Position numbers and translations under genes: made by a program
Notes under the pieces: generated by a model
The model's database searches: none
What the model was told of the DNA's origin: nothing
What the model saw: only the letters and a program-made list of their open reading frames with translations
In this document: positions 4,229 through 36,850 of the stretch, in pieces
Numbering within the stretch: position 1 is the first letter of the stretch
Layout of the letters: the number at the start of each line of letters is the position of its first letter
Assembly (NCBI GenBank): GCA_021794075.1
Contig: JAJYRM010000006.1
Location: forward strand, 1-64,000
Length of the DNA: 64,000 nt
From: Bacteroidota bacterium
Lineage (GTDB): Bacteria > Bacteroidota > Ignavibacteria > Kryptoniales > JAKASW01
Reading direction: 5' to 3'

Positions 4229-4400
4229 CCATTGATGCTCTAGCATCTGCCATCTTTGCCCTTCTCCATCTTCTGCCATTTTCAAATTCCTTTTCATGAC
4301 GCTACATCTGACAGCCATGCAAGTTGCCCGTTCTGTGGATTCCCGGCATTTTCTTTTGTAGAATTCTCAAAGATCCGCAGGCAAGATTCAGGAGGGAGAA

Positions 4401-4541
4401 ATGAAAAGGGCGTCAAGCATGAGTGTCGTTCTGGATCGGGTTTCAATTTGCGTGTTAGCCATTGCGGCCGCGGTAAACCTATGGGGTTGCACAAGCATTC
4501 AACCGCTCGTGGTCGTGCGAAGCGTCGATGTTAACGGGTGA
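4401..4541 (+). CDS. Small putative lipoprotein (46 aa)
   Basis: A short frame starting at ATG 4401 directly after a strong GGAGGGAG ribosome site (4391-4398). It encodes a positively charged start (MKRASSM), a hydrophobic stretch (VSICVLAIAAAVNLW) and a lipobox-like WGC at residues 28-30. Only 16 residues follow the putative lipidated cysteine. It ends in TGA 48 bases before tsaD. It may be a real micro-lipoprotein, or the start of a longer gene cut off by a stop. The good ribosome site and signal-peptide shape argue for translation. No function can be assigned. Confidence 0.45.
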   Translation: MKRASSMSVVLDRVSICVLAIAAAVNLWGCTSIQPLVVVRSVDVNG

Positions 4542-4588
4542 ATCAATTGAAGCTTGTAAATGTTTGACGTTAATTTTATAATTCATTC

Positions 4589-5602: not shown

Positions 5603-5603
5603 A

Positions 5604-9197: not shown

Positions 9198-9804
9198 TAA
9201 GGTCAAACGGAAAATCATCGTCGGCGTTACCGGCGCGAGCGGAGCTATTTACGCGCTTCACACTATTCGTGCTCTTCTTCAGCATGGGGTCGAGGTTCAC
9301 CTGATAGTCTCGGACTACGGCGCTTACGTCATGGAAAGCGAGACGGGCTTCAGCCTTAAGGGGACGAGCCTCCTGGACGATTTCGCTGAGAGATTCCCGG
9401 GCGCTCCGCTCACCGGTGGAATAGTCAGGTACAGCAATAAGGATCTTGCCGCGTCCGTATCAAGTGGCTCATTTGGAACCGACGGTATGGTCATCGTGCC
9501 TTGTTCGATGAAGACACTCGCGGGGATCGCGCAGGGAATTGCGAGCAGTCTGATCGAGCGTTCGGCCGACGTTACACTCAAAGAGGGGAGAAAACTCGTG
9601 CTTGTTCCGCGCGAGACACCGCTGAACAAGATACACCTGAAAAATCTTCTTGCCGCGGCGGATGCCGGCGCGCACATAGTTCCCGCTATGCCGGCCTACT
9701 ACCAGAAACCGCAATCGATACCGGATTTGGCGGACTTCATGGCGGGGAGAATACTGGCGCTCTTCAATATCGACGCAAAATTATTCGAGCCTTGGCAAAA
9801 GTAA
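9190..9804 (+). CDS. ubiX: Flavin prenyltransferase UbiX
   Basis: Makes prenylated FMN from FMN and dimethylallyl phosphate, the cofactor of UbiD-type decarboxylases used in ubiquinone and menaquinone pathways. The 204 residues begin with the flavin-binding motif GVTGASGAIYA. They contain MVIVPCSMKTLAGIAQGIASS, the conserved VLVPRETPLN, and the family ending MPAYYQKPQSIPDLADFMAGR. The GTG start at 9190 overlaps the previous stop. No ubiD is seen in the window. The gene could serve the futalosine menaquinone route, which also uses UbiX/UbiD-type chemistry; that is inference. Confidence 0.95.
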   Translation: MSDKVKRKIIVGVTGASGAIYALHTIRALLQHGVEVHLIVSDYGAYVMESETGFSLKGTSLLDDFAERFPGAPLTGGIVRYSNKDLAASVSSGSFGTDGMVIVPCSMKTLAGIAQGIASSLIERSADVTLKEGRKLVLVPRETPLNKIHLKNLLAAADAGAHIVPAMPAYYQKPQSIPDLADFMAGRILALFNIDAKLFEPWQK

Positions 9805-11456: not shown

Positions 11457-11611
11457 GGCAGCGCCATACTCCGCATCGCCTGAGCCTGATGTGCTCCAAG
11501 ACACTTAAACTCCGGTTTAGAAATTCTAAAATCCCATAGTTAAGCGGCGAGTCGTCCTGTTCTTGGCGTGGCCGATTCCTGCGCATCAACACTTTTGAAA
11601 GGGATTAGATT

Positions 11612-12145
11612 ATGAAGACGTTGCTCTTCCTTGTAGCCTTCCTCCCTATGACGGCATTTGGCCAGGGATTTCTGCCACGATGGGAAATGTCTCTCTTGAC
11701 CGACGCAAATTCTTTCTCGGATCGAGGTGGTGGGCATAGCCAGATCGGCTTAGCATTTCGGCCCGGACTCTTCGTGATGCCCGGACTTTCTTTGGAACCT
11801 GAGATCGCGTGGGCCGCTTTTCGCGGACAGAGCCCGGCGATCAACGCGAGCGGTAATATTTCCTACAGCTACGGGATGGGATACAATACGTTCGTGCCCT
11901 TTGTCCTTGCGGGATACGGAGCCGGAAACGGCTTCCCGTTTTACCAACCGATCCAGAAGGATGCCACTTATCTTTCGGCAATTACTTTCTTCAACGCGGG
12001 GGGCGGACTGAAGGTGATGGTGATCGGTGGAAGATCGCTAGTAAGGATCGAGTATCGCTATCAGGCTTTCAAGGCCGATATCCATGGTTTCAAAGAGAAT
12101 GTCTTTGCCAGAAGGATCATGCTGGGATTCTCAATTCTTCTTTGA
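11612..12145 (+). CDS. Putative small outer-membrane beta-barrel protein
   Basis: 177 residues with a clear signal peptide (MKTLLFLVAFLPMTAFGQG, cleavage after about residue 18). Alternating hydrophobic strands follow: ISYSYGMGYNTFVPFVLAGY, GGGLKVMVIGG and a last strand RRIMLGFSILL. This is the size and pattern of an eight-strand barrel. An AAAGGGATT ribosome site precedes the ATG. The 155 bases upstream hold no gene. Function unknown. Confidence 0.65.
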   Translation: MKTLLFLVAFLPMTAFGQGFLPRWEMSLLTDANSFSDRGGGHSQIGLAFRPGLFVMPGLSLEPEIAWAAFRGQSPAINASGNISYSYGMGYNTFVPFVLAGYGAGNGFPFYQPIQKDATYLSAITFFNAGGGLKVMVIGGRSLVRIEYRYQAFKADIHGFKENVFARRIMLGFSILL

Positions 12146-12268
12146 TCGTTCAATGATAATCTGACACTTCTGCGCGGAGTGAAGGTCTGCGGCGCCAGCG
12201 CGGTATGAATTGAACCTGTCCTTGGTTTGAACGATTTTCCATAGTCATCATACCATGGAGGATTTTGC

Positions 12269-13216
12269 TTGGAAGTTGTCGGCGGAACTGCCGGATGGAG
12301 TTACGAGGACTGGGTCGGACCGTTTTACCCCGCCGATCCGCCAAAAGGTTTTTCACGCCTCGCCTTCTATTCCGGCTTTTTCGATTGCGTCGAGGTCGAC
12401 AGCACTTTCTACCGCCATTTTCTGCCCAGCGTCGCGGAGAAGTGGCTGCGGGAGGTCGAATGTAACGACCGCTTTGTCTTCCTTATAAAGCTTCACAAGA
12501 GCTTCACTCACGGCAGGCCGGAAGAAGCAAAAGACACGTCGACCGACAAGACCGTGGTGTCGGATTTTCTCGCGCCGTTTGTTGAGGGGAAGAAACTGGG
12601 AGGACTCCTCGTTCAATTCTCCGAGTACTTCAAGGATGCTCAGGCGGCGAGGGACAGGATCTCTTCTATCGTAGATGAGTTTGCAGGCATCCCGCTCTTT
12701 TTTGAGCTGCGACACGTGTCGTGGTACACCGAGAAGGCTTCAAGGTTTATTGCGGAGAGGCATATTGACGTCATCGCGATAGACCAGCCTGATCTCAAAG
12801 GGATGGTGGGACTGAATCCAGGCATCGTCGGCGAGATCGGTTATTTCAGGCTCCACGGGAGGAATAAGGAAAAGTGGGAGCTTGGAAGGAAATCTCTCGC
12901 TGAGAAGAAGTCGGCTCCTGTGGTTACAGATGTAAGTGAGCCGGGGAGGAACGCCCGCTACAATTATTTGTACTCCGAGTCTGAGCTCGATGAGATAGAG
13001 GTGAAAATCCGGAGCGTCGGCGAGAGGTGCAGGAGGATATACGTTGTGGCTAACAACCACCCCATGGGCAAGGCTGTCGCAAACGCACTTGAGCTCGTCA
13101 GGAGACTCAGGAACCAGGAGACGGTAAGGATGCCAGAAACAGTGATAAGGTATTTCCCCGAACTCGAAAAAGTGGCGGAAAGGGTGAACTTGGGGCCTCA
13201 GGCATCCCTTTTTTGA
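12269..13216 (+). CDS. DUF72 (YecE-like) TIM-barrel protein
   Basis: 315 residues of the DUF72 family, a barrel of unknown enzymatic role. Seen in sequence: GGTAGWSYEDWVGPFYP at the start, FDCVEVDSTFYRHF, FVFLIKLHKSFTH, LGGLLVQFSEYFKD and the late GYFRLHGRNKEKW. The TTG at 12269 is chosen because it follows GGAGG (12257-12261) by seven bases and the protein then begins at the conserved first strand. It stands alone, with about 100 bases on either side. Confidence 0.88.
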   Translation: MEVVGGTAGWSYEDWVGPFYPADPPKGFSRLAFYSGFFDCVEVDSTFYRHFLPSVAEKWLREVECNDRFVFLIKLHKSFTHGRPEEAKDTSTDKTVVSDFLAPFVEGKKLGGLLVQFSEYFKDAQAARDRISSIVDEFAGIPLFFELRHVSWYTEKASRFIAERHIDVIAIDQPDLKGMVGLNPGIVGEIGYFRLHGRNKEKWELGRKSLAEKKSAPVVTDVSEPGRNARYNYLYSESELDEIEVKIRSVGERCRRIYVVANNHPMGKAVANALELVRRLRNQETVRMPETVIRYFPELEKVAERVNLGPQASLF

Positions 13217-13314
13217 GCATCCACTTCCGAATCATAGGCACTGGTTTCTGTCTCACGCGCTTCCTAAATTTTCTTGCCAGGATATCAATCATAAAAAAGA
13301 TTTGATAAATAACT

Positions 13315-13980
13315 ATGTTTGAGAGCGATTATATACTCAGGATGTTTTCGATGCTCGGTAGGGCGCTCGCAAGGGTAATGTTCTTCAGAGAAACGAAGAA
13401 TTACGACGCGGCCCTCCTTGAGGTGGATAACACCGGGCTTTCGTTGCTTGGCCTAAACATGGACACGATCGAGCGGCTTCCCGTGGCCGACCTTAAGAAC
13501 GTGCTCGGCTCCGATCCTTCCCTTGTCCAGTCGAGACTCTACACGGCGGGAGTCCTTCTCAAGCAAAAAGGAGAATTACTCGAGCTCAAGGATGAAGGCG
13601 CGGACGGCGCGGGACTCTATCTCAAAGCTCTCAGGCTTATGACAGATGAGGTCAAAGGCCTGGAAGAAATTGACGGGCAAAAAGGCATTGCCAATGTCGA
13701 CGCCGTGATTGAGAATCTCAAGGATTATGAACTTCCAACGGATGTGAAACTAAGACTCATAGACTATTTCGATTACTCCGGCCGATTCGACAAAGCTGAG
13801 GATATTATATTTGAAATGGTCGAGGACTCTCCGTCGTTCGCGGGCGACGGGGTCTCGTATTACGAGAGGCTTTTGAAGAAATCCGACTCCGAGCTTGAGA
13901 CGGGCCATCTTCCGCGCGCTGAAGTGGAAGAGGCGCTCAGAGAGCTTCAACAAATAAAACAGTGGCAAGATAAAGCGTAG
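13315..13980 (+). CDS. Helical protein of unknown function, resembles DUF6483
   Basis: 221 residues, almost entirely helical and acidic. The opening MFESDYILRMFSMLGRALAR followed by ETKNYDAALLEVDNTG recalls a family annotated as DUF6483 in other bacteria (memory-based, not searched). The middle part reads like TPR-type helix pairs (LYTAGVLLKQKGELLELKDE; FDKAEDIIFEMVEDSP). No signal peptide, so it is probably cytoplasmic. It precedes queF by 61 bases, but no functional link is evident. Confidence 0.6.
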   Translation: MFESDYILRMFSMLGRALARVMFFRETKNYDAALLEVDNTGLSLLGLNMDTIERLPVADLKNVLGSDPSLVQSRLYTAGVLLKQKGELLELKDEGADGAGLYLKALRLMTDEVKGLEEIDGQKGIANVDAVIENLKDYELPTDVKLRLIDYFDYSGRFDKAEDIIFEMVEDSPSFAGDGVSYYERLLKKSDSELETGHLPRAEVEEALRELQQIKQWQDKA

Positions 13981-14041
13981 CAAACCAACCGTGGCGGTGT
14001 TCCGCCGGAAATACATCTAAGAGAATTCCAGAGGGATTAAG

Positions 14042-23143: not shown

Positions 23144-23582
23144 ATTTCAGTGTAACCCGGGTCCCGTCTTCTTAAATCAATTGGTTCGTTCTCTTTGCGC
23201 GCATAAATTCCGTATAAAATAGATAAAGGGCCAAACATATTACAGTGACTTTATGCTTGTAGCTTTACAACGGAGGCAGGAAATCCGCGTGGGGCAAACC
23301 GGCGTTTGAGAGGTAGGAGCGGACCCGCGCTTACTGATCTGTCATGGTCCGAGCCAAGGAATTATTTCATTTCAATTCCTTTATTCTTAGATTGGCTGAC
23401 GAAAAAGCGGTGTTGTCCGAATAAGCCGGTCCAAGGCGGCGATAACCCACGAAGGTGCCGCTTTTGCAGGTACTTGAAGGATGACCGAGGCCGCTTTCCA
23501 ATTTCGCCGACTCATGTCGATCAAAGCTCACAGTTGGTCTGACTGACGGCGCTCAATCACGCAAATAGGGAGAAGCAAGCAG
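23144..23582. other. Gene-free divergent intergenic region, possible long leader of the symporter gene
   Basis: 439 bases between the divergent glycosyltransferase and symporter genes. It probably carries both promoters. The 78-codon frame inside it (23306-23542) lacks a ribosome site and looks random. GC-rich blocks near 23270-23340 and 23420-23540 could fold, but I do not recognise a known riboswitch. An AGGGAGAAG ribosome site lies just before ATG 23583. Confidence 0.5.
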
Positions 23583-25541
23583 ATGCATCTTGGCGTTGTT
23601 GATATAAGTATCATCGTGGTGTATTTCGTGGGGGTTGTTCTTCTGGGTATGCTTGTCACAAAGAGGGCTTCAAAAAACATCCAGCAATACTTCCTCGGCG
23701 GGAACCAGCTCCCGTGGTGGGCGCTTGGCGTTTCGAATGCCTCCGGAATGTTCGATGTGGCGGGCACAATGCTACTGGTATACTGGCTGACGGTGTACGG
23801 AATGAAGAGTATGTGGCTTCCATGGTTGTGGCCGGTGTTCAATCAGATTTTCCTCATGGTGTACATGTCGGCGTGGCTGAGGCGGTCCAATGTCATGACG
23901 GGCGCCGAATGGATAAAGACACGTTTCGGGACAGAGAAGGGGGGAAATCTCTCGCATATCATCGTGGTCGTGTTCGCGCTGATAGGAGTCATCGGATTTC
24001 TATCTTACGGATTCAAAGGCATAGGCGAATTCGCGGTCGCCTTCTTCCCCCCGCTCGTGAGTAATCCGGCGACTCTCGCGAAATATCCCGACATCAACGC
24101 CAACCTCTACGGCCTGATAATCATGGCGATAACCACGATCTACGTTGTAAAGGGAGGCATGTTCAGTGTCGTGATAACTGAAGTGCTCCAGTACCTTATA
24201 CTGACGATCTCGTCGATAGCGATTGGGATAATCGCGATGGCATATGTCTCTCCGTCGATGATCCACGCGGTCCTGCCTCACGGCTGGGCCAACATGTTCT
24301 TCGGATGGCATCTGCACATGGACTGGACGTCGATCACTTCGGCGGCCTCGTCCAAAGTGACCGAGTTCAGCAAATGGATCTCGACCGACGGCTATTCAAT
24401 GTTCGGACTGTTCTTTATAATGATGCTCTTCAAAGGAATATTCATTTCGGCGGCGGGTCCAGCGCCGAACTACGACATGCAGCGTGTCCTTTCGACGAAG
24501 AACCCCGTCGAGGCGGCAAAGATGAGCTCGCTGGTAAACGTCGTCCTCAACCCCGCGCGTTATCTCATGGTGGCAGGCCTGACGGTGCTGGCGCTGACGA
24601 ACTTCAACGCGCTGTACAGCGGTTCGATCGCCACGCCGAACTTCGAGACAATACTCCCCGAGGTCCTCGCGCATTACATTCCCGTAGGACTTCTCGGCTT
24701 CCTGATGGCTGGCCTGATCGCGGCGTTCATGAGCAACTTCGCCGCGACTGTGAACGCTGCGCCCGCTTATATCGTGAACGATATTTATAAGAGATACATC
24801 AATCCGAACGCGGATCCGAAAGTCTACGTTAACTGGAGTTACGTGACGACTGTCATCGTCATCGTGGTCGGGGTCGGAATCGGATTCATGGTGACCTCGA
24901 TCAACCAGGTCGTGCTCTGGATCGTCTCAGCGCTTTGGGGAGGCTACACGGCGGCGAACGTGCTGAAGTGGTACTGGTGGAGATTCAACGGTTACGGCTA
25001 TTTCTGGGGAATGCTCACGGGAATCGGAACCATGCTTCTGTTACTGGTCCTCGACAACTTCAACCTAATCCCGTTTCTCCGCAATTGGCCGATTTCGAAC
25101 AACGCGAGCATGAATTCCTTCCCGATAATCTTTATAGTTTCAATCATAGGTTGCTACGTTGCGACTTACATGACTCCGCCCGAAAGCGACGAGACTCTCA
25201 TGGGATTCTATAAGAACGTCCGTCCGTGGGGTTTCTGGCAACCTATAAAGGAAAAAGTCATGAAGTCGGATCCGTCGTTCCAGCCGAACAAGGATTTCAA
25301 GCGCGACATGTTCAACATCGTGGTCGGAATGGTCTGGCAGATAACGTTGATGGCCGCCCCAGTTTATTTGGTGATCCGCGACTGGTCCGGACTTATTATC
25401 TCCATGGTAATCATGGTAGTGACATCGATAATTCTCAAGGTCAACTGGTGGGACAAGCTCGAGGAGACCTTCGGTGAAAAAGTCGCGACGGAGAAGAGCA
25501 TTGGTAGTTCAAGTGTAGAATTAGCGGGAGAAACAAAGTGA
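23583..25541 (+). CDS. Sodium:solute symporter (SSS family), probably sugar transport
   Basis: 652 residues with about fourteen transmembrane helices. The N-terminal [20 protein letters not shown] matches the sodium-site region of SSS proteins, and [14 protein letters not shown] and [21 protein letters not shown] are conserved LeuT-fold positions. The length and the C-terminal extra helix resemble vSGLT-like sugar carriers. Its stop overlaps the GH130 phosphorylase start by four bases (GTGA), so the likely cargo is a mannose-containing disaccharide or oligosaccharide. That inference rests on the neighbour, not on binding residues. Confidence 0.88.
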
Positions 25542-26737
25542 ACAAAGCACGATTCAATCAAAAGGTTAGAGAGATGCTCTCCGCGCAGGAGAGACTGATA
25601 AAGCGCAAGAACGAGCCGGTAAAGGAAGGGAACGGGATATTCATCCGATACAAATACCCGGCGGTCACGGCGGCTCACGCGCCGATACACTGGCGATACG
25701 ATCTGGATTTCGGGACGAACCCGAATCTTCTCGAGAGGATCGGCGTCAACGCGGCATTCAACGTCGGAGCAGTAGAGCATCAGGGAAGCGTCCTCCTTTT
25801 CGTGAGAGTGGAAGGGGCGGACAGGAAATCGTTCTTCGTGGTCGCGGAGTCGAAGAACGGGGTCGACAATTTCAGGTTCTGGGATTATCCTATCACGATC
25901 CCCGAGCTGCCGGGCAACCCTGACACTAACGTGTATGACATGCGCGTGACGAAGCACGAGGACGGCTGGTTCTATGGCATCTTCTGCACGGAGCGCAAAG
26001 ACCCGGAGGCGCCCAAAGGGGATTTGTCATCGGCCGTCGCCCAGGCAGGCATCGTCCGCACGAAGAACTTCATCAACTGGGAACGTCTCCCTGATTTGAA
26101 AACGAAGTCCCCGCAGCAGCGGAACGTCGTGCTCCATCCTGAGTTTGTGAATGGCAAATACGCCTTTTACACGAGGCCGCAGGACGGCTTCATAAGCGCC
26201 GGCTCCGGCGGCGGCATCGGCTGGGGACTTTCCGAGTCGATGCTCGGCGCCACGATCGACGAGGAGACCATCGTCGACGACCGTCAGTATCACACTATAA
26301 AGGAAGTGAAGAACGGGCTCGGCCCGGCGCCCATAAAGACCGAGAAGGGTTGGCTCCAGCTGGCCCACGGAGTCAGGAATACCGCCGCGGGTTTGCGATA
26401 CGTGCTCTATATGTTCCTCACCGATCTCGAACATCCCGACATGAAGATCGCCTCTCCCGCCGGCTACTTTCTCGCGCCGGAAGGCGAAGAGCGCCTCGGG
26501 GACGTTTCGAACGTCGTGTTCAGCAACGGTTGGGTGAAAAGAAAGAACGGAGATGTGCTGATATATTACGGCTCGTCAGACACGAGGACTCATGTCGCGA
26601 GGACTACTGTCGATAAGCTTCTGGATTACGTCGTGAACACTCCGCCCGACGGGCTGAGGAGCGCCGAGAGCGTGAAGACGCGGAACGAGCTGATCGAGAG
26701 GAACCTTAAGATCATAAAGAAGTTGAAGAAGAAGTAG
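25538..26737 (+). CDS. GH130 4-O-beta-D-mannosyl-D-glucose phosphorylase
   Basis: 399 residues, a five-blade beta-propeller of glycoside hydrolase family 130. These enzymes use inorganic phosphate to split beta-mannosides into mannose 1-phosphate and a second sugar. Seen: [20 protein letters not shown], then [19 protein letters not shown], which carries the Asp of the proton relay. Next come [19 protein letters not shown] and [14 protein letters not shown]. These closely recall subgroup 1 (mannosylglucose phosphorylase), as does the length. GTG start overlapping the symporter gene. No epimerase or mannanase lies nearby, so the upstream steps of mannan use must be elsewhere. Confidence 0.88.
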
Positions 26738-26807
26738 CAAGCCATGTCAGGCCGTTTAAGGCTTGACACGGTAGGCGTAAACCAAACCTCACCGCTTGCA
26801 GTGAGAT

Positions 26808-26840: not shown

Positions 26841-27108
26841 ATGACGCCTTAGATTCAGCTCGCCGGATTTGAAGGAGGAGAAATTATCTCCTGGTCGGAA
26901 AGGAAAGGCGCAGCTGTCCGGAGAAGCTTGCGGGTCGCACAATTTGCTCGAGAAGTGCATCGGTATTAACTTCGTCCAAGAATCAAAGGGCTAAAGCGTG
27001 AGTCAGGTGGAGATGACAATGCACATCAGGGAGAGGGCGATCTGTCAGGTAGGGATCCCGGTAGAATGAGTAATACACACGAATCGTACAAATACGAAAT
27101 AGATGTTC
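26841..27108. other. Gene-free stretch between the terminator and the accessory region
   Basis: No open frame with a ribosome site is seen. One short inverted repeat (AGGAGA/TCTCCT near 26876-26892) is present, plus an XhoI-type CTCGAG hexamer at 26947-26952. It marks the border between chromosomal core genes and the cassette-like region. Confidence 0.4.
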
Positions 27109-27163
27109 GCCTGTTATACCATATGCCGCGTATAAAGGTAGTGTGGTTTAGAAGAAGTTAGGC
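27109..27163 (+). other. Candidate recombination boundary: degenerate attC or attI-like site ending in GTTAGGC
   Basis: The segment ends in GTTAGGC (27157-27163), a perfect match to the integron core GTTRRRY, preceded by AGAA. The outer ends pair as CGCCT/AGGCG. The inner boxes TATACCATAT and GTGTGGTTTA pair at 7 of 10 positions. The left core reads GCCTGTT instead of RYYYAAC, so it is not a full attC. It could be a decayed attC or an attI remnant, because attI sites also end in ...AAGTTAGGC. It lies 68 bases before the endonuclease start. Confidence 0.35.
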
Positions 27164-27231
27164 GAAATGGCGGCACGGGCGAATGGAATCTCCGCTCGCT
27201 ATTCTTTATTTTGTGTTAAAACTGGACTACT

Positions 27232-27969
27232 ATGAAGAGGCTTGACAACATTTCCAAATATCTTTCGCAAGCGATCGCCCACTACTGGCTCACTCGGCAA
27301 AAACAGTCTGAAAAGCAATCGAACTCGGGCAGAGCGGATCAGGGTGCTCGAAGCGCTGTGACAGGCGGTGCTCAGATGGATGGCTTCATAGACCTTATTA
27401 GCGATCTAATACTCGAAGTTGGCGCGGATAGATCGAATGTTTTTCGCAACAAGCACCTTGAGTTGCCCGGCTTCTTCCGACCCACGAAAGAATGGGACCT
27501 TTTGCTTGTGAAGGACAGCCAGCTTGTCGTTGGTCTCGAAGCGAAGTCCCAAGTTGGTCCATCCTTCGGAAACAATTTCAACAATCGTACTGAGGAAGCA
27601 ATGGGGAGTGCTCTCGACCTGTGGACAGCGTACAGAGAGGGGGCTTACAACAGGACCATAAAACCATGGCTGGGGTATCTGTTCCTCCTTGAAGATTGCC
27701 CTGAATCTAAAAAACCCGTCCGGGTACAAGAACCACACTTCAAAGTCTTTCCAGAGTTTGTCGATGCATCTTACGCGAAACGCTATGAACTCTTTTGTCG
27801 CAAGCTTGTGCGCGAGCGGCATTATAGCGTTGCTGCCTTTCTCACGTCTGACCGCAAACGTGGGCTAAAAGGCCATTATTCGGAACCTGCGGACGATCTA
27901 ACGTTCGATATATTTGCCAGATCGCTTGTCGCTCAAGTTGCAGCCTTCGGAGTATCGAAAGCCATATGA
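27232..27969 (+). CDS. Type II restriction endonuclease, PaeR7I/XhoI-like
   Basis: 245 residues. The sequence around D89 and E103-x-K105 (KEWDLLLVKDSQ ... VVGLEAKSQVGPSFGNNF) fits a PD-(D/E)xK nuclease core. FNNRTEEAMGSALDLWTAYR directly after it is strongly reminiscent of the PaeR7I family, whose known members cut CTCGAG. The ATG at 27232 has no strong ribosome site; this may matter because weak translation of the nuclease relative to the methyltransferase is common in such systems. Its stop overlaps the methyltransferase ATG by four bases. The gene order is nuclease first. Confidence 0.82.
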   Translation: MKRLDNISKYLSQAIAHYWLTRQKQSEKQSNSGRADQGARSAVTGGAQMDGFIDLISDLILEVGADRSNVFRNKHLELPGFFRPTKEWDLLLVKDSQLVVGLEAKSQVGPSFGNNFNNRTEEAMGSALDLWTAYREGAYNRTIKPWLGYLFLLEDCPESKKPVRVQEPHFKVFPEFVDASYAKRYELFCRKLVRERHYSVAAFLTSDRKRGLKGHYSEPADDLTFDIFARSLVAQVAAFGVSKAI

Positions 27970-28901
27970 CATCAAAAGAAACCGCTCAGCAGGAAGTCAC
28001 GACACACCGTTTGATCCAAGGCGACGCCAGAAATGTCTCGTTCATCAAAAATGAGTCTGTTCATCTCATTGTTACCTCGCCTCCGTATTGGACGCTGAAG
28101 CGTTACAACGAGAGCCCAAACCAGCTTGGGCACGTGGCGGACTACGAACAGTTCGTTAGTGAACTCGGAACAGTATGGAAGGAGATGCACCGCATATTGG
28201 TACCTGGGGGCCGGTTGGTCTGCGTAGTCGGAGATGTTTGTCTGTCACGGAGGAACTTTGGCCGTCACGTCGTATTCCCACTGCACTCGGACATCGCGGT
28301 CACTTGTCGCAAAGCTGGATTCGATAACCTGAACCCCATAATCTGGCACAAGATTGCCAACGCAAATTATGAGGTAAATAACGGATCAAAGTTCCTGGGG
28401 AAGCCTTACGAGCCAAACGCCATCATAAAGAACGACATAGAATTCATCCTCATGCAAAGAAAGCCTGGAGGGTATCGTCAGCCAACCGAACGCCAACGCA
28501 AACTTAGCATGATCTCTAAGGAGGAGTACAATAAGTGGTTCCAGCAGTTTTGGAACATCACTGGCGCATCCACCCGTGAGCACCCTGCTCCTTTTCCGCT
28601 GGAACTAGCTTACAGGCTTGTCAGGATGTTTTCTTTTGTTGGCGATACAGTTGTCGACCCCTTCTGCGGTACTGGCACAACGATGGTCGCTGCTCTTAAA
28701 ACTGGCAGGAACAGCGTTGGAATCGAAATAGACCCTGAATATTGCAAGATGGCCGAGGAGCGCTTGCGAAGGGAGAACGACGACATGTTCTCGTCAGCTA
28801 ACCTGGAGTTTATCTATCCCGCAAGAGAGGGTGAGCACAAGGCGGTCGTGGGCGAAAAACGAGAGAAATATAAATCCAAGGTGAAGCGGTCTCTGAAGTA
28901 A
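27966..28901 (+). CDS. Type II DNA methyltransferase, beta class (predicted N4-cytosine or N6-adenine)
   Basis: 311 residues. Catalytic motif IV is TSPPYW (residues 37-42), located before the SAM-binding motif I DPFCGTGTTMVAAL (231-244). That order defines the beta class. The SPPY form is most often found in N4-cytosine enzymes. ILVPGGRLVCVVGD is motif V/VI-like, and SVGIEIDPEYC follows motif I. It overlaps the endonuclease gene (ATGA), so the two form one operon protecting the endonuclease's target. The attC-like site begins only 18 bases after its stop. Confidence 0.93.
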   Translation: MTSKETAQQEVTTHRLIQGDARNVSFIKNESVHLIVTSPPYWTLKRYNESPNQLGHVADYEQFVSELGTVWKEMHRILVPGGRLVCVVGDVCLSRRNFGRHVVFPLHSDIAVTCRKAGFDNLNPIIWHKIANANYEVNNGSKFLGKPYEPNAIIKNDIEFILMQRKPGGYRQPTERQRKLSMISKEEYNKWFQQFWNITGASTREHPAPFPLELAYRLVRMFSFVGDTVVDPFCGTGTTMVAALKTGRNSVGIEIDPEYCKMAEERLRRENDDMFSSANLEFIYPAREGEHKAVVGEKREKYKSKVKRSLK

Positions 28902-28918
28902 ACAGGTGCCGCCGCTTC

Positions 28919-29050
28919 GCCTAACAAGCGGCAAAAAGACCCTCCGCATTTATATATGTCGTGGTCGCTTCATCCCGATTCGGCACCATGGTCGGAGCTT
29001 CGCGCATTTATAGTGCCGAATCGGGACGACTTTTGCCGCACTCGTTAAAC
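28919..29050 (+). other. Integron attC recombination site (predicted)
   Basis: 132 bases with all the parts of an attC. The left core R'' is GCCTAAC (28919-28925, fits RYYYAAC). The inner box L'' is AGCGGCAAAAAG. A long central palindrome has 14-base perfect arms (TCCCGATTCGGCAC at 28973-28986 and its complement at 29013-29026). The inner box L' is CTTTTGCCGCA, complementary to L'' except for one extra base on the L'' side, as is usual. The right core R' is GTTAAAC (29044-29050, fits GTTRRRY). Length is within the known attC range. It follows the methyltransferase stop by 17 bases. Confidence 0.72.
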
Positions 29051-29100: not shown

Positions 29101-29748
29101 TTGAAATCTTCGCTTGAACTGTCCTTTGAGCTTTCCGATCAAATACTTGTATTTCCTCTTGGCAAGTGTGGCCCTAGCGATGATCCGGATATGCAATATG
29201 CTTATACATCATCATTCCGGGATATGGCTAAGAGATTCGTAGCGGCGATCAAACGCATCGGGGATCCCGACCTTTCATCCATGGTTGCGGACTTGGATAC
29301 CTCACCAGAGTATATTGCACAGGCCCACGAATTGCGTGCGGAACTTCTACCCGTTATTGATGCGTTCAAAGAAGCTTCCCTTGACCCTAACTACCCAACC
29401 AATGTGAAGAGCAACTCTGGCTTCTTGAATGCGGAGGTCCTCGCTAGCCTGAGAAACCTCGAAATCAAAGAGTTGGATACAAGGAAGCTCACCAAGATGT
29501 GCGAGGAATTGAATGACAATTTCTCGAGGGGGAATTACATTTCATCTGCTTTGATCCTCCGTGCAATAATCAACCACGTGCCCCCAATATTCGGCTTGGA
29601 CAGGTTCTCTCAAGTTGTTGCCAATTCAGGAAAAAGTATCGGGCGAGTATTGGCTCGCTTGAATGATGATGCGCGCCCTATATCAGACTTACACACTCAC
29701 CTTCTAATGCGGCGCAATGAGAGTCTTCCAACGAAGAATCAATTGTAA
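29101..29748 (+). CDS. Unknown cassette-borne protein (215 aa)
   Basis: Starts at TTG 29101 after GGAGG (29092-29096). No signal peptide or membrane helix; predicted mostly helical. The C-terminal third (GNYISSALILRAIINHVPPIFG ... RVLARLNDDARPISDLHTHL, read as two short segments) recalls a domain I have seen in uncharacterised proteins near defence or signalling modules. I cannot name it. It lies alone between two integron-like cores, next to a restriction-modification pair, so a defence or stabilising function is possible but unproven. Confidence 0.75.
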   Translation: MKSSLELSFELSDQILVFPLGKCGPSDDPDMQYAYTSSFRDMAKRFVAAIKRIGDPDLSSMVADLDTSPEYIAQAHELRAELLPVIDAFKEASLDPNYPTNVKSNSGFLNAEVLASLRNLEIKELDTRKLTKMCEELNDNFSRGNYISSALILRAIINHVPPIFGLDRFSQVVANSGKSIGRVLARLNDDARPISDLHTHLLMRRNESLPTKNQL

Positions 29749-29857: not shown

Positions 29858-30097
29858 GCAACGGCGTATAGCACGCAGTAAAAAGATGCTCCGCATTTAT
29901 GTATATCGCGGTCGCTATCCGACACATGAGGTGCGGAAAGCTGATTATCACATGAAGTTATCGTGGATCGGGTCACCCAGATTGCCGCGCGCCATGGATG
30001 CTGCCCAAGCGGGCATCAGTTGGTAGTTCGTTTTGTGGCACACTTTGCAACCCCGGGAGGCGGTGTTATCCGGAAACCGTGTAGTCGATAGTTAGGC
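29858..30097 (+). other. Diverged attC-like segment ending in GTTAGGC
   Basis: From 29880 about 38 bases match the left half of the 28919 attC at roughly 33 positions (both share AAAAAGA, then CTCCGCATTTAT and GGTCGCT). After that the similarity is lost. A six-base inverted pair TCCGCA/TGCGGA flanks the following stretch. The left core near ACGCAAC (29857) has one mismatch to RYYYAAC. The next perfect GTTRRRY is GTTAGGC at 30091-30097, too far for a normal single attC. I read it as a truncated or rearranged attC. The whole gap 29749-30138 holds no credible gene. Confidence 0.35.
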
Positions 30098-30138: not shown

Positions 30139-30885
30139 ATGGACATCCCACGAATATTCAACGTCACTGAAAGTGCCCACCGGATCCACAACCCGATCAC
30201 AGCCGAAAAGCTCGCCACTCTCGGCGCGGCGCTGCGACTGGAGCCGGGGGCCCGGGTCCTTGACCTCGGCAGCGGTTCGGGAGAGATGCTGTGTACCTGG
30301 GCATGCGATCACGGCGTCATCGGCACCGGCATCGACATGAGCCAGTTGTTCACAGAGCAAGCGAAACTCCGCGCTGAAGAACTTGGCGTCGCCGATCGGG
30401 TGAAGTTCATCCATGGCGATGCTGCCGGCTACGTCTCCGGCGAGAAGGTCAGCGTGGCAGCCTGTCTCGGCGCCACATGGATCGGCGGGGGAGTCGCCGG
30501 CACTATCGAGCTTCTGGCGCGGAGCTTACAGGCCGGAGGGATCATCCTCATCGGTGAGCCCTACTGGCGGAAGTTGCCGCCGACGGATGATGTTGCCAAG
30601 GGGTGCCTTGCCGATTCAATCTCCGAGTTTGTCACGCTTGCAGAACTTCTTGCGCGTTTCGGTCAACTCGGCTACGACGTCGTTGAAATGGTTCTGGCTG
30701 ACGAAGACGGCTGGGATAGATACGAGGCGGCCAAATGGCTCACCATGCGCCGATGGCTTGAGGCCAATCCCGACGACGACTTCGCCAAAGATATTCGAGC
30801 CAAGCTGACCTCCGAACCCGAGCGCTACGCCACCTACACGCGTGAATACCTTGGATGGGGTGTGTTCGCGCTGATGCCGCGGTGA
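30139..30885 (+). CDS. Class I SAM-dependent methyltransferase, small-molecule type
   Basis: 248 residues. Motif I is RVLDLGSGSGEMLCTWA (residues ~39-55), then GTGIDMSQLFTEQAK as the post-I acidic motif, and later GGIILIGEPYWRKLPPTDD. The C-terminal WLTMRRWLEANPDDDFA is found in many uncharacterised Ubie/COQ5-like methyltransferases. A TAAGGAG site precedes the ATG. Codon use is visibly more GC-rich than the two preceding cassettes, which suggests separate acquisition. Substrate unknown. It starts 41 bases after a GTTAGGC core. Confidence 0.82.
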   Translation: MDIPRIFNVTESAHRIHNPITAEKLATLGAALRLEPGARVLDLGSGSGEMLCTWACDHGVIGTGIDMSQLFTEQAKLRAEELGVADRVKFIHGDAAGYVSGEKVSVAACLGATWIGGGVAGTIELLARSLQAGGIILIGEPYWRKLPPTDDVAKGCLADSISEFVTLAELLARFGQLGYDVVEMVLADEDGWDRYEAAKWLTMRRWLEANPDDDFAKDIRAKLTSEPERYATYTREYLGWGVFALMPR

Positions 30886-31100
30886 TGCGCCGTTCTTGTG
30901 TTGCAAAACGCGATATACAGTATTTTTCCAGCGCCTTAGAGACCACCTCACGAAGCCTTCCTGCGCGAGTCAGGCCCGACATTCTTATATATCGTTCTTG
31001 CCCTATGCCGCTATTATTATTGATAGAACTGAAGCACGGTGGGACGGGGGGACGGTAGTGGCAACCGACTTTGGCATTCTGTCCAAAAAGGAGGCACTTG

Positions 31101-33257
31101 ATGAAAAATGTTCGATTACTTTTGATTGTACTCTTTGTTTCTACTTGGGCATCCAAATCATACGGTCAATGGGCTCCGAGCAACGGACCTTTCGGCGGGA
31201 GCGTTATGTGCCTTGCCACTTCAGGTGCAAACATTTTTGCCGGTGGCGGTTTTGGTGTTTACTTGTCCACCAATGATGGTGCAACCTGGTCAAATGTGAG
31301 CTCCGGCCTGGCAAACTACTCCGTCACAGCCCTCGCTGCTGTCCCAAACGGCAAGGGGGGCGTGAATATCTTTGCGGGAACCTATGGCGGTGGAATTTTT
31401 TCTTCTGCCAACAATGGCGCAAGCTGGAAGCAAATCAATAGCGGGTTAACGAGTTCTAAGGTGTCGTCTATCGCGGTCATGGGCGTCAATATTTTCGCGG
31501 GAACCCTCGATGGAATTTTTCTGTCAACCATCTACGGCCAGTCTTGGAGTCCAGTCGATTCAGGGATAGGTGACGCCGACGTCTTGTCTCTTGCAGTTTC
31601 AGGATCAAGCGTTTTTGCCGGAACAGGTTATGGATATGCCGTCTACTGCTCGAACGACACCGGGAAATCCTGGGCTCCAATTGATTCTGAACTGGCTTCC
31701 GCCGTATACTCCTCGGGACTGGCTGCCTACTCCAGCGGGACCAACAATACAGAGGTTATTGTGGGCGATGGTGCAAGCGGATTAGGTATTTTCCATTATA
31801 CCAACAATGGCCAAGGGTGGATTCGAATGGGTACAACATTGAAAGGGACTTGGATCCACAGCCTTACCGCAATTCCCAACAAGTTCGGCGGTGTTGAGCT
31901 ATTTGCGGGCACCGGCGGGGACGGAGTCTTCCGATCCACAGATGATGGAGTCAGCTGGGTGAAAGTAGGTGTCGGGCTCACAGAAACCACAGTCCTGGCC
32001 CTTGCTTTCTATACCGACCTGACCGGCAGCCTTAATCTGTTTGCAGGAACTCACGCGAGTGGAGTCTATATTTCCACCGATGAAGGTACAAAATGGACCC
32101 AGACGAACGAAGGTTTCCATAGTCCAGACGTCAACACCATTGCTCTTTCAGGAGCAAGTCTGTATGCTGGAACAAACACGGGTGTGTTTCTCTCAGCAGA
32201 TAATGGAAACTTGTGGACTCAGATCTATACCGGGGGGGTGCATTCGCTAACGGCGTCACCGAACGGATCGGGAGGGACGAATCTTTTTGTGGCCACTGAT
32301 CTTGGTCTCTTTCGTTCAACAGATGACGGAGCAAGCTGGAAAGGGGCAATTACCCTGACAGGCTTTCCCTTCCTTTCCTTGTGTACATATCTTGATCAGA
32401 GTGGAGATACCGCGATTTTTGTCGGATGTGACGGAGGAGGCGTCTACCGTTCAACCGACCAGGGCGCGACTTGGGCTAAAGTCAACACAGGCCTGACCGA
32501 CGGGCATATATATGTTCTTGGGCAATCGGGAACCAATCTCTACGCAGGCACATTTTTTGGCCCTTTCGTCTCGACCGATATGGGAGACAACTGGACTGCG
32601 ATCAACACGGGGCTGCCGGGTGTTGGCATATACTCCTTTGCAGCCGAAGGCACACATCTCTTTTTGGGTACTCTGCAAGGTGTGTTTGTTTCTGCGAACA
32701 ACGGCTCAAGTTGGTCCCATGCTGACACAGGTCTGTCGGACCCTCGCGTTTACGCGCTTGCTGCCTTTGGAACAGACCTTTTTGCTGGTACAGCTGCCGG
32801 TGTTTTTGTCTCAACAGACAACGGAGCATACTGGACATCGACGAATTCGGGCTCGATGGGCGCCTACGCGGTCCATGCCCTCGCAATATCCGATAAGAAT
32901 CTTTTCGCCGGGACTTACTACGGTGTTGGCATTTGGAAACGACCACTGTCCGAGATGGTAACTTTCGTGGGAAATGCTGGGACTCATGGGCCCGTGACGT
33001 TCTCGCTCGGTCAGAACTTTCCTAATCCCTTCAACCCCAGTACGATTATTACCTACCAATTGGCAAAGAACGAATATGTAGTATTGAGAGTGTTTGATAT
33101 GCTCGGGAGAAAAGTGGCAACATTGGTAGATGGACGCCAGGCTGCGGGCGACCATTCGGTAACTTTCAATGCTGGGAATCTGCCGAGTGGTGTTTATCTG
33201 TACAGATTAGTAGCTGGAGCGTTCCATGCCACAGGGAAACTTTTATTGCTTAGATGA
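31101..33257 (+). CDS. Secreted beta-propeller (BNR/sortilin-like) protein with type IX sorting domain
   Basis: 718 residues starting at ATG 31101 after AAAAGGAGG; the frame upstream to 31071 is not needed. Signal peptide MKNVRLLLIVLFVSTWASKSYGQ (split here: MKNVRLLLIVLFVSTW, then ASKSYGQ). About twelve repeats of the form FAGT..GVF.STD.G..W follow (for example IFAGTLDGIFLST and LFAGTAAGVFVSTDNG), as in Vps10/BNR propellers. The last ~85 residues carry QNFPNPFNPSTIITYQL ... FDMLGRKVATLVDGRQAAG ... GVYLYRLVAG, a T9SS-type CTD that directs export across the outer membrane. Probably surface-exposed or secreted. The target is unknown. Confidence 0.93.
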   Translation: MKNVRLLLIVLFVSTWASKSYGQWAPSNGPFGGSVMCLATSGANIFAGGGFGVYLSTNDGATWSNVSSGLANYSVTALAAVPNGKGGVNIFAGTYGGGIFSSANNGASWKQINSGLTSSKVSSIAVMGVNIFAGTLDGIFLSTIYGQSWSPVDSGIGDADVLSLAVSGSSVFAGTGYGYAVYCSNDTGKSWAPIDSELASAVYSSGLAAYSSGTNNTEVIVGDGASGLGIFHYTNNGQGWIRMGTTLKGTWIHSLTAIPNKFGGVELFAGTGGDGVFRSTDDGVSWVKVGVGLTETTVLALAFYTDLTGSLNLFAGTHASGVYISTDEGTKWTQTNEGFHSPDVNTIALSGASLYAGTNTGVFLSADNGNLWTQIYTGGVHSLTASPNGSGGTNLFVATDLGLFRSTDDGASWKGAITLTGFPFLSLCTYLDQSGDTAIFVGCDGGGVYRSTDQGATWAKVNTGLTDGHIYVLGQSGTNLYAGTFFGPFVSTDMGDNWTAINTGLPGVGIYSFAAEGTHLFLGTLQGVFVSANNGSSWSHADTGLSDPRVYALAAFGTDLFAGTAAGVFVSTDNGAYWTSTNSGSMGAYAVHALAISDKNLFAGTYYGVGIWKRPLSEMVTFVGNAGTHGPVTFSLGQNFPNPFNPSTIITYQLAKNEYVVLRVFDMLGRKVATLVDGRQAAGDHSVTFNAGNLPSGVYLYRLVAGAFHATGKLLLLR

Positions 33258-33575
33258 CGCAAACGGTAGCTGTACCTGGCAAGTAGGAAGAACACGCTTG
33301 CCAGAAGCGAGACAATTACACGGAGATACGCTGCGGAAGAAACGAAAGAGGCAGGGAGAGGAGAATATACTCTCTGTGGAACTCTGTGCTTCTCCGCGGG
33401 GCTCCGTGAAATATTCAAAGCCGAGGCAGCTCCCTGCAGGCAGGCTCCCTACTTGCATATGTTCAGCTTACATGTCTCCAACGAGCCGCAACTTCGGCGA
33501 AATGCCCAAAGCCACAGGTACTGTGGCGCATGATTGAAATGATTTAATCGGTATCGGATCCTAAAGGAGACTAAC
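33258..33575. repeat. Non-coding stretch with a low-complexity CTCTGTG/CTCCGTG repeat
   Basis: 318 bases without a credible gene. Around 33360-33410 the sequence strings together near-repeats (CTCTCTGTGG, CTCTGTGCTTCTC, GGCTCCGTGAA). Phrases of this sort recur between genes of many environmental bacteria. A partner AGGCAGCTCCCTGC-AGGCAG-GCTCCCTAC direct repeat lies at 33424-33452. A promoter for the cupin gene must lie near the 3' end. Confidence 0.45.
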
Positions 33576-33923
33576 ATGAGAACCTCTCTGAAAAAGTCAC
33601 CCGCAACGACAAGAGGTGTTACGGAGAAAGTACTCACCGAGGTTGATCTTGGCCCTGAGGTTAAGGGCATGGCAGGGCGCAAGCTTCGGATGCGCCTGAT
33701 TACCATCGCACCTGGAGGCGCCACGGCGATTCACAATCACGAAGACAGGCCCGGCACGGTCTACGTTCTGCGAGGAAGGATCATGGACCATCGTGGCGGT
33801 GTGGCGAAGGAGTATGGACCAGGCCTGGGTTGGCCGGAGGACAGAGCTACAGAACACTGGATCGAGAATAGAGGAAAGACTCCTGCGGTCGAGATCTCTG
33901 TAGATATCATCAAGCAGCGTTAG
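33576..33923 (+). CDS. Single-domain cupin protein
   Basis: 115 residues forming one cupin barrel. Metal-binding motif 1 is HNHEDRPGTVYVLRGRI (residues ~49-65, two His and the downstream Gly). Motif 2 is TEHWIENRGKTPAVEIS, with a histidine and an asparagine at the usual places. It begins ATG 33576 after AAAGGAG. Such cupins bind a metal and act as small enzymes or sensors; substrate unknown. The gene stands alone in a repeat-rich region. Confidence 0.85.
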   Translation: MRTSLKKSPATTRGVTEKVLTEVDLGPEVKGMAGRKLRMRLITIAPGGATAIHNHEDRPGTVYVLRGRIMDHRGGVAKEYGPGLGWPEDRATEHWIENRGKTPAVEISVDIIKQR

Positions 33924-34357
33924 GCTAAAGCCAGGCTCGTCATATCCATGTGTAGTGTTCGCCCGTCTCCGACGAGGGGGCAAAGTTCCGTCACTTTGGG
34001 GATGGAGCAGAAGGAAATCAAACTGCGGACTCTGAAATCTGTTTGATTACAGGCATCTTATGCTCCTCATTTACGATAGTAATATCATATCGCTTTATTT
34101 AGAGAGTCGACCTTGCTGCAATCATCGTATGACATCCTAAACCACGACGCGCAAGGTAAACTTCTACAAGCTCAGCATGTTCGGCTTAAGAGGCGAACGC
34201 ACTTAGATGCGGATGGATCGCGCTGTTTTGCGTCATGTCCGACCAGGCGGACATGACGCCCAGCCTTCTATGAGAGATTCTGCGTGGTCCGAGATGACTG
34301 ATTACTATTCAGGTAAGAAGTGAAGTGAAAGGGGCTATTAGCCGTCCGCTGCCAACC
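33924..34357. other. Gene-free intergenic region with one perfect inverted repeat
   Basis: 434 bases between the cupin gene and the convergent purE. No frame with a ribosome site is seen. It contains the inverted repeat listed at 34230-34259 and a short rRNA-like string near 34190 that I do not count as a gene. Likely decayed accessory DNA. Confidence 0.45.
34230..34259. repeat. Perfect 12-bp inverted repeat with 6-base loop
   Basis: The arms GCGTCATGTCCG (34230-34241) and CGGACATGACGC (34248-34259) are exactly complementary, around the loop ACCAGG. No T run follows, so it is not a standard terminator, though it could end transcription in a factor-dependent way. It may also be a protein-binding site or the end of a small mobile element. 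Confidence 0.7.
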
Positions 34358-35389
34358 TCATTTCAGAAACGGGAGTATCCCATCTTTCTGAATTCTAGCG
34401 TCTTTTTCTTTGACGGACTTGGCCAACCCATCTCTGTATGCTTTGACTCTATCCTGGATTGCCCTATCGAACAAGCCGGCAATCTGAGCCGCGAACAAGC
34501 CGGCGTTCATGTAGCGGTTTATTCCCATGCCTGCTATCGGATGGCCTTTCAACTTTCCCGTGGGAGCGGTCGAACAGAGCATGTTATAGAATATGTCGCC
34601 TTCAACCCTCGGATCGTTCCCGGCGAAACCTTTTGCCAGAGGGAGACCTATCGATGGGATGTCGGTCATCTCCGACACTTTCGCTGGGAAATCGTTTGTT
34701 GGCTTCTCTCGGCCCAGCCCGCCGATGACTATAACTGCCACGGCTCCTTCATTCTCCAATTCTCTAACAAATGATTTAACTCTCACCACATCCTCGGCCG
34801 ACACTTCGGAAACTTGTGTCGTGAGTCCGAATTTTTCCATCGACGAAGTCATCTCAGAGTATTTGCGTTCATCGATTTCTGTTCCAGCCGCCTTAATGAT
34901 TCCAACTTTCGATGCCGTCTTAGCGAGAACGGTCCCTTCAATTCCCCTGTACGCCCTTATCCTGTTGCGCATTTCCGAATCGTTATTGTACGCGATTTCC
35001 GAAGCAAGGATGGCCGCGCTTTCCGATTCACCGATGCCGACACAGCCGACCGGGATTCCGTCCGGCATTTGGATTATGGAGTAAAGAGAATCCTGGCCGC
35101 TGAGGTTCGAAGTAGTAACGGGCAACCCGATTACCGGAAGGACGGTCTCGGACGCGGTCATGCCGGGGAGATGAGCCGAACCTCCGGCGGCGGCTATGCT
35201 TACGAAGAAGCCGTTGTCCGAAAGCCTGCGAGCTTCCGCGGCCATCGCCTGCGGCGTCCGGTGAGCGGACAAAATCCTCGGCGAGTAAGGAATTCCCAAC
35301 GATTCAAAGAACTCATAGGCTTTCCTGATCTTAGGTATATCGGAATCGCTTCCCGTCCTGACTTCAATCAAACCCCTCTGGCTCTTCAC
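34358..35389 (-). CDS. purE: AIR carboxylase-type protein with two tandem PurE domains
   Basis: 343 residues, about twice a normal PurE (~160). The first domain has the full N5-CAIR mutase pattern: RTGSDSDIPKIRKAYEFFE, catalytic-histidine motif ILSAHRTPQ, AAAGGSAHLPGMTA, IGLPVTTSNLSGQDSLYSI. The second domain (residues ~170-300) repeats the fold (VVRVKSFVRELE; VIVIGGLGREKPTNDFPAKV; IGLPLAKGFAGNDP) but replaces SAHRTP by a non-catalytic sequence. The active enzyme moves the carboxyl group of N5-CAIR to C4 in purine synthesis. GTG start one base after the purK stop. The second half may be structural or regulatory. Confidence 0.9.
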   Translation of the reverse strand: MKSQRGLIEVRTGSDSDIPKIRKAYEFFESLGIPYSPRILSAHRTPQAMAAEARRLSDNGFFVSIAAAGGSAHLPGMTASETVLPVIGLPVTTSNLSGQDSLYSIIQMPDGIPVGCVGIGESESAAILASEIAYNNDSEMRNRIRAYRGIEGTVLAKTASKVGIIKAAGTEIDERKYSEMTSSMEKFGLTTQVSEVSAEDVVRVKSFVRELENEGAVAVIVIGGLGREKPTNDFPAKVSEMTDIPSIGLPLAKGFAGNDPRVEGDIFYNMLCSTAPTGKLKGHPIAGMGINRYMNAGLFAAQIAGLFDRAIQDRVKAYRDGLAKSVKEKDARIQKDGILPFLK

Positions 35390-35390
35390 G

Positions 35391-36575
35391 CTATTTGTTC
35401 CCTCCGACTATTTCGACTTTATCCCTTATCTTTTCGGCGCGGCGGATCAACTGATCCTGCGTCTCGCCTTTCAACGACAAGACGGTGAAATGTCCCATTT
35501 TCCTGTAAGGCTTCACTTCATGCTTCCCATAATTGTGGACGTAAATGCCCTCTTCAACACGCGCCGTTCCAATTACAGGTTTCCCGTCGTAAGTTATACG
35601 GTATTTTCCCGACTGTCCTTCAAGGCCGATTATGTTGTACATGACTGTCGGCCCGGATACCAATCCGGTATCGCCCAACTTGTCTCCCGCGATGGCCCTT
35701 AGGTGCTGTTCGAACTGAGATGTGTGACACGCTTCAATCGTGAAGTGGCCGGAGTTATGAACACGGGGTGCAATCTCGTTTATCATGACTTCACCATTCA
35801 CAACGAACATCTCAATCCCATAGACTCCGGCTCCCTTCAATGCCTCCATCGCGTCACGGGCCACCTTCTCGGCTTTTTCAATCACGCTTTCACTCGCCCT
35901 GGCTGGGACGATCGTCGTCTTAAGAATGTTGTAATCCGCGCCATGAATGTTCTCGCCGACGGGGAAGTTCGCGATCTCACCATCGAGTCCGCGCGCGGAA
36001 ATGACCGAGACCTCGAGATCGAATGGTATGAACCTCTGGACCATCACCTCTGTGCCGTTGAAGTAAGTGAAGACCTCTGCTATCTCGTCCTCTTTCCTCA
36101 CGACGAAGTTTCCTCTCCCGTCATAAGAGTCTTTTCTCGCCTTAACCATGAGCGGCAAGCCGTATTCCTTCACGGCTTTTTCTAGATCGGGCTTCCCATC
36201 TATTTTTCTAAAGTCCGGGACAGGAATATCATGGGCGCGGAGGAAATCGGCCTGGGTGAATTTATCCTGGATGATCCGCAAAGTCTCGGGAGAAGGGTGT
36301 ACCGGCTTCCCCTTCCTGCTCAGCTCGCTCAGCACTTTGCTGTTCGCCAGCTCGATCTCGAACGTTAGTATGTCCGCGCTCTCTCCGAGCCGTTTGATCT
36401 GATCTTCATCCTTGTAATCTCCGACGATTTGTTCTTCGAGGAACGGACGCGCGGGACAATCTGGGGTCGGATCGACTGCGATCAACCTGTAAGGTAGATT
36501 CTTGCTCCTTATCGCCTCTCCCATCATTAGGCACAGTTGGCCACCGCCGACAACACCTATTGTTCTTTTATTCAT
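35391..36575 (-). CDS. purK: N5-carboxyaminoimidazole ribonucleotide synthase PurK
   Basis: An ATP-grasp enzyme of 394 residues that carboxylates AIR with ATP and bicarbonate to N5-CAIR. The N-terminal GVVGGGQLCLMMGEAIR is the nucleotide-fold start. ATP-grasp residues appear in LPLMVKARKDSYDGRGNFVV and EVMVQRFIPFDLEVSVI. The metal and substrate region is VNEIAPRVHNSGHFTIEACHTSQFEQHLRA (two parts). It lies directly upstream of purE on the minus strand, making a purK-purE operon that supplies N5-CAIR to the mutase. Confidence 0.96.
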   Translation of the reverse strand: MNKRTIGVVGGGQLCLMMGEAIRSKNLPYRLIAVDPTPDCPARPFLEEQIVGDYKDEDQIKRLGESADILTFEIELANSKVLSELSRKGKPVHPSPETLRIIQDKFTQADFLRAHDIPVPDFRKIDGKPDLEKAVKEYGLPLMVKARKDSYDGRGNFVVRKEDEIAEVFTYFNGTEVMVQRFIPFDLEVSVISARGLDGEIANFPVGENIHGADYNILKTTIVPARASESVIEKAEKVARDAMEALKGAGVYGIEMFVVNGEVMINEIAPRVHNSGHFTIEACHTSQFEQHLRAIAGDKLGDTGLVSGPTVMYNIIGLEGQSGKYRITYDGKPVIGTARVEEGIYVHNYGKHEVKPYRKMGHFTVLSLKGETQDQLIRRAEKIRDKVEIVGGNK

Positions 36576-36850
36576 TAGAAATCTTCAATCGATTGTTAGT
36601 TAATCCTGTGCGAGATTTGTCTCCAGGCGAAAGTGCCAATGAACGGAACGCGCGCTCTTCCCGGAAACAATTACTCTCCCTCTATTCAATTAAATATAAG
36701 AGAAAATTGTGAAACAGGATGGGGGAAGGGGATCATTCGTAGTGACTCGTCGCCATTAATTGATGCGGCCTCATCGGCGTCAGCGGACTGCGTCCAATGC
36801 CGGGTCCATCTACTCTTGAAGACATTTACATGCTGTTATATATTCGATGA

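Follow-up and report, generated by a model that had tools for sequence, protein, structure and literature searches.

Probable remains of an integron-like cassette platform in a Bacteroidota genome, with a tyrosine recombinase without the I2 domain as the likely integrase

Classical integrons, such as the class 1 integrons and the Vibrio cholerae superintegron, are built from an IntI integrase, an attI site and attC sites. Xer enzymes, for their part, resolve chromosome dimers at dif. Published surveys pick IntI proteins by their additional domain, I2 (PMC2426708; PMC9668308), and IntegronFinder relies on a profile specific for this domain (PMC9668308). I2 docks extrahelical bases, and its gain is held to have shifted integron integrases from double-strand to single-strand recombination, although direct proof of this causal role is not available since deletion of the domain abolishes IntI1 activity (PMC7790495). 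Integrons with a reversed intI were noted in Spirochaetota; their integrases are classed as IntI, being recognised by the additional domain (PMC9668308).

The system described here appears integron-like in its working, yet its integrase does not possess the I2 feature that defines IntI. It shares with classical integrons the combination of one gene and one folding attC per cassette, the core GTTRRRY, an attI-like site by the integrase, long arrays and exchange between species. Unlike in classical integrons, the integrase lacks I2, falls outside the IntI clade and, in this genus, points towards the array, while the attC sites have 18-bp outer arms with a mismatch at position 10, whereas good pairing in classical arrays of that class is confined to the R box. 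The orientation of the integrase in the cassette direction recalls the reversed-intI integrons of Spirochaetota, but the domain that identifies those integrases is absent here, and other I2-less members differ from them in being divergently oriented. The IntegronFinder rule would be expected to class these arrays as integrase-less clusters of attC sites (CALIN), from which they differ in that an integrase gene adjoins the first cassette. With the Xer enzymes (XerA, XerC/D, XerH) and the IS91-linked tyrosine recombinases, the integrase has in common the fold family, a similar size and the catalytic residues; unlike Xer, integrases of this kind adjoin attI-like sites and cassette arrays.

Within the window, i.e., the whole stretch of 64,000 nucleotides analysed, a 132-base palindrome on the plus strand (28919-29050) lies behind a restriction-modification operon. 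A preliminary description had called it a textbook attC-like site and had proposed to fold its single strands and to search the genome for further attC sites and for intI. Its location, the core heptamers GCCTAAC (28919-28925) and GTTAAAC (29044-29050), the inner boxes GCGGCAAAAAG / CTTTTGCCGC with one extra A in the left one, and the perfect 14-bp inner stem TCCCGATTCGGCAC / GTGCCGAATCGGGA all read as that description had them. Folded as DNA, the bottom strand reaches -31.8 kcal/mol against -18.3 +/- 2.6 for shuffled sequences (z -5.2, with none of 200 shuffles as good) and the top strand gives a z of -3.5. The palindrome thus combines the traits of an attC: imperfect symmetry, RYYYAAC / GTTRRRY cores and single-strand folding. 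A copy with 95% identity is found at positions 118-254 of contig C70, and weaker copies occur on three more contigs. A degenerate attC sequence pattern performed near noise genome-wide, and a covariance model, R1, built from ten sites and containing 17 of 26 pairs with compensating changes, was used instead. The palindrome scores 89.4 bits under R1, a value that is not independent because the site was one of the ten. With R1, the genome yielded 32 sites (E no higher than 1), spread over contigs C70, C182, C236, C184 and C172. As the preliminary description had anticipated, the palindrome is an attC-type site, and it belongs to a cassette array; about 32 such sites lie in arrays of one-gene cassettes in this genome.

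The cassette that this site closes (cassette 1, 27158-29044, plus strand, 1887 bp) was defined because 27157-27176 and 28906-28925 (20 nt), 1.7 kb apart, are complementary, at 90%; G|TT is found at both ends. Between its left outer arm (27157-27174) and right outer arm (28908-28925, ending in the R'' core GCCTAAC), A27167 is mispaired with C28915. In a circular form of the cassette, TTAGGCGAA... would come right after the G of the attC that closes it and form base pairs with the left flank of this site. The cassette carries genes for an XhoI-type restriction endonuclease (27232-27969; PF04555, E 2.4e-91; PADLOC REase_II, E 3e-90) and its partner DNA methyltransferase of N6/N4 type (27966-28901; PF01555, E 1.1e-43; PADLOC MTase_II). 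Depletion of CTCGAG, a possible sign of XhoI activity, gave no signal in the window (18 observed, 16.7 expected). Restriction genes also occur as cargo on C70, where L032 1395-2303 encodes a type IV Mrr-like enzyme. The palindrome follows the operon stop codon closely and folds well, as befits a transcription terminator or a dispersed palindromic repeat with no part in recombination. We nevertheless give such a reading next to no credence: the recombination cores are conserved, the sites lie in chained arrays with one gene per unit, the complementary ends stand 1.7 kb from each other, cassettes shared between genomes end at the cores, and an Rfam scan of the palindrome region found no match.

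The arms proved to be a general feature of these cassettes. Across 88 cassettes, the start of a cassette and the flank of the attC of that same cassette are complementary at 73% of positions compared with 41% (sd 1.3) for shuffled sequences; complementarity to the flank of the neighbouring attC is 41%, the same as for shuffles. In the 71 well-paired cassettes, chosen by at least 9 of 15 matches (a choice that favours pairing overall but would not leave a single position unpaired), the 18-bp arms pair at 85-100% over positions 0-16 except for position 10, which pairs at 1%. There the cassette start has a mispaired A in 69 of the 71 and the facing base is C in 65. Ten classical cassettes, by comparison, pair at 92.5% in positions 3-6 and at 48% in positions 7-17, without any mark at position 10. 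Read on the bottom strand, the A-C mismatch of the top strand is a T-G wobble; of 64 sites folded by computation, 62 fold better as the bottom strand. The inner part combines an L stem, at most 12 bp long, with about 30 nt of conserved sequence on one side; the L stem is unbroken over at least 8 bp in 39 of the 64 sites and interrupted in part of the sites, so that extrahelical bases may be present. The window site has one extra A. With its 18-bp outer arms, fixed mismatch and large one-sided conserved loop, the attC is therefore not of the textbook kind. End complementarity, together with the edges of shared cassettes, points to discrete and putatively circularisable cassettes with a predicted crossover at G|TT.

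Cassette 1 is followed by a second one (29045 to approximately 30000, plus strand), whose start, GTTAAACGCCATTG, matches the complement of 29859-29872 in 10 of 14 positions. Here A29054 stands opposite C29862, so that both window cassettes bear the position-10 mark. Its attC (29866-29963) is damaged, with the left half kept and the right half degraded; the similarity to the first attC amounts to 74% identity over 66 nt (the stretch from 28904 and its partner at 29851), and under R1 the site scores 21.3 bits, for an E of 0.15 genome-wide. The ORF of cassette 2 (29101-29748) has no informative family match. Upstream of cassette 1, the segment 27103-27163 ends in the core GTTAGGC (27157-27163) and aligns, with the same GTTA at its end, to the spacer that separates the integrase stop codon from the first cassette in nine other loci, which identifies it as an attI-like site. 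It is preceded by the decayed 3' end of an integrase gene of the I2-less type (approximately 26926-27102, plus strand): 26942-27124 has 69% DNA identity to L032:6471-6286, i.e., the 3' end of the C70 integrase gene and the following spacer, and tblastn aligns 22 of 59 identical residues (E 1e-6) across in-frame stops. This decayed remnant is all that is left of an integrase beside the window array. The remnant, the second attC and the other end of cassette 1 had escaped the preliminary description. The left junction also bears on whether cassette 1 might be a lone cassette inserted off-target in trans (attG-type) with no platform in the window. Relatives do carry single or few sites on many of their contigs, and integrons are documented to act off-target (PMC10127599), but the junction is an attI-like segment after an integrase 3' end, arranged as on C70. 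An off-target lone insertion at 27157 was consequently dropped as a candidate, and we regard this explanation as very improbable.

The integrase remnant, attI-like site and cassettes together mark the segment 26738-34389 as a decayed integron platform, comprising two recognisable cassettes and, probably, the remnants of others. The DNA on either side aligns with L172 of the same-genus genome G012 (23365-26738 with 8351-11724 at 84% identity; 34390-36576 with 11823-14015 at 78% identity), where the same flanking genes are separated by 98 bp compared with 7.65 kb in the window, a presence/absence difference compatible with either gain or loss. Downstream of cassette 2, a methyltransferase ORF (30139-30885), a BNR/sortilin-repeat protein with a T9SS tail (31071-33257) and a cupin (33576-33923) were identified by family matches, all on the plus strand. 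These genes (30139-33923) are possible further cassette remnants; we infer their membership, as no attC was recognised between them. A 90-nt piece (34031-34120, plus strand) recurs at 84% identity in the outer end of a cassette at L033:16707-16796 and L173:839-928. BNR/sortilin-repeat proteins with T9SS tails also occur as cassette genes at L033 (C182) 3573-5615 and 11247-13319, and a further cassette gene at L033 9894-11072 encodes a beta-lactamase-family protein (PF00144). The presence of T9SS genes indicates a member of the Bacteroidota-like group.

Intact counterparts of the platform are present elsewhere in the genome. The arrays are chains of one-gene cassettes, with the longest ORF in the direction of the attC in 25 of 27 cassettes inspected. 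The main array, on C70, starts at an integrase gene (L032:6308-7216, minus strand) oriented, like its counterparts in the genus, along the cassette direction. The segment from the integrase stop to the first cassette is attI-like and can be aligned among members of the genus; its position and alignment both place a putative attI next to the integrase gene. In this spacer (L032 6255-6310), as in its counterparts at further loci of the genus, the core is immediately preceded by an inverted repeat, AAAAACG...CGTTTTT, a possible binding pair for the integrase. Inside the C70 array (L032 3391-5446) are an IS91-family transposase and the tyrosine recombinase that belongs to it, which has a broken reading frame and is a relation of the I2-less integrase; as the array starts at the other, stand-alone integrase, the IS91-linked enzyme was rejected as its owner.

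The C70 integrase clearly departs from IntI. It scores 223.6 bits against TIGR02249 (integrase_gron), under the curated cut-off of 265, and its alignment to the Vibrio integron integrase 2a3v contains a 42-residue jump. Two conserved motifs are 71 residues apart in this protein; the spacing is 67-76 in fifteen array-linked or homologous proteins versus 112-113 in eleven IntI proteins of the class and IntI1. The additional domain that defines IntI is thus missing from the array-linked integrase, while the catalytic-type residues R150, K175/K178, H240, R243, H266 and Y275 are invariant in the alignment. An AlphaFold model of moderate quality (pLDDT 77, pTM 0.56) has no helix between residues 200 and 216, and its best structural match is 2a3v, followed by XerA (5hxy). 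True IntI proteins form a clade with 100/100 support that excludes the array-linked integrases, and the Xer-like proteins of the genome itself are distant from the I2-less integrase. Ancestral and convergent origins are not separated by this tree because it is in practice unrooted. Given a linked integrase without the defining domain and a decayed platform in the window, the notion of a textbook integron does not hold.

We also considered that the sites are classical remnants served by a true IntI encoded elsewhere or lost, the I2-less recombinase being an unrelated neighbour. A true IntI is found in 12 of 61 relatives of the class, including G002 and G003 of the genus, and genes may have been lost or left unassembled in a genome of 240 contigs. 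The search for intI did recover an integrase gene in this genome, which is 99.8% complete, but no true IntI over the cut-off, and an IntI acting in trans was rejected on the same search. Moreover, R1 found zero sites in 184 kb around the true IntI genes of the relatives, which own classical attC sites; a generic scan near several of them recovered attC-like sites of about 60-160 bp with a different sequence. R1 sites instead follow the I2-less integrases, occurring in 13 of 14 genomes with an integrase at least 53% identical and in 4 of 47 without one, and the arrays of the relatives directly adjoin the I2-less gene. As the integrase remnant in the window also aligns with the I2-less gene, we consider a classical remnant unlikely. 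Adjacency and co-occurrence do not prove that the integrase acts on the sites: four genomes (G006, G008, G012 and G049) have sites and no integrase match at E 1e-40, and G002, G003, G021 and G040 hold both integrase types. True IntI genes with classical attC arrays were seen at L200 (G049), L201 (G031), L197 (G044) and L208 (G003). In two relatives, R1 sites are found singly or in small groups on many contigs (C3, C5, C11, C33 and C39 of G005; C7, C9 and C21 of G007; L174-L180 and L227), a pattern suggestive of more than one platform, or of off-target insertions, in each genome.

Cassettes appear to have moved between these relatives. G009 and G011 share a 541-bp cassette at 93.5% identity, and in both the alignment runs from 3 nt ahead of one boundary to 8 nt past the other. 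A 3065-bp cassette is shared at 98.6% identity by G011 and G003; the integrases of these two species each have about 70% identity to the C70 enzyme and group apart in the tree. Such sharing supports a recent exchange of cassettes between species, with putative edges at G|TT.

In our judgement, what the window contains is probably the degraded platform of a cassette system of integron-like type that would use an I2-less tyrosine recombinase as its integrase. Units ending at G|TT, complementary ends, covarying attC hairpins, attI-like array starts and intact copies on C70 and in relatives can all be read directly from the DNA. The I2-less integrase would excise and insert cassettes by recombining folded single-strand attC sites, presumably with a preference for the bottom strand. 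The 18-bp arms, the fixed mismatch and the one-sided conserved loop may mark the strand, as extrahelical bases and I2 do in classical integrons. The XhoI cassette could now be moved only in trans, by the C70 integrase.

No description of an I2-less integron integrase was found in open-access papers; the novelty of the system is provisional because the search covered open papers only. We lean towards the wider proposal of a second kind of integron in several phyla, with an I2-less integrase, folded attC sites and arms bearing a fixed A-C / T-G strand mark, which would be either a pre-I2 relative or an independent invention and would have been overlooked because integrases are recognised by their I2 domain. 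Such a system could supply the missing enzyme for some integrase-less attC clusters and could widen the set of phyla with cassette capture. The combination of natural folding attC-like sites and an I2-less integrase also makes the need for I2 directly testable.

The R1 model is clade-specific, as it matched only one of 80 more distant loci, nearly all of them I2-less. More distant records were consequently searched by the arm rule, i.e., complementary ends of 18 nt in which an A meets a C at position 10, without any attC model; reversed sequences and classical loci, used as controls, gave none. Cassettes obeying the rule were detected beside I2-less integrases in Firmicutes/Peptococcaceae records (L079, L096 with four, and L137), Patescibacteria groups (L120, L135), Spirochaetota (L111) and Bacteroidia/Flavobacteriales (L102, L105). 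In these records single arm pairs could be due to chance and binning of metagenome-assembled genomes can misassign contigs, while the tandem cases are solid. The integrases at all these loci lack I2; five arrays begin 75-135 nt downstream of the integrase match on the same strand, and others are divergent, like classical integrons. An integrase homologue at E 1e-75 was found in 12 of 396 sampled genomes of the phylum. Two further families, fetched later, also fit the arm rule, in 6 of 6 and 9 of 11 end pairs.
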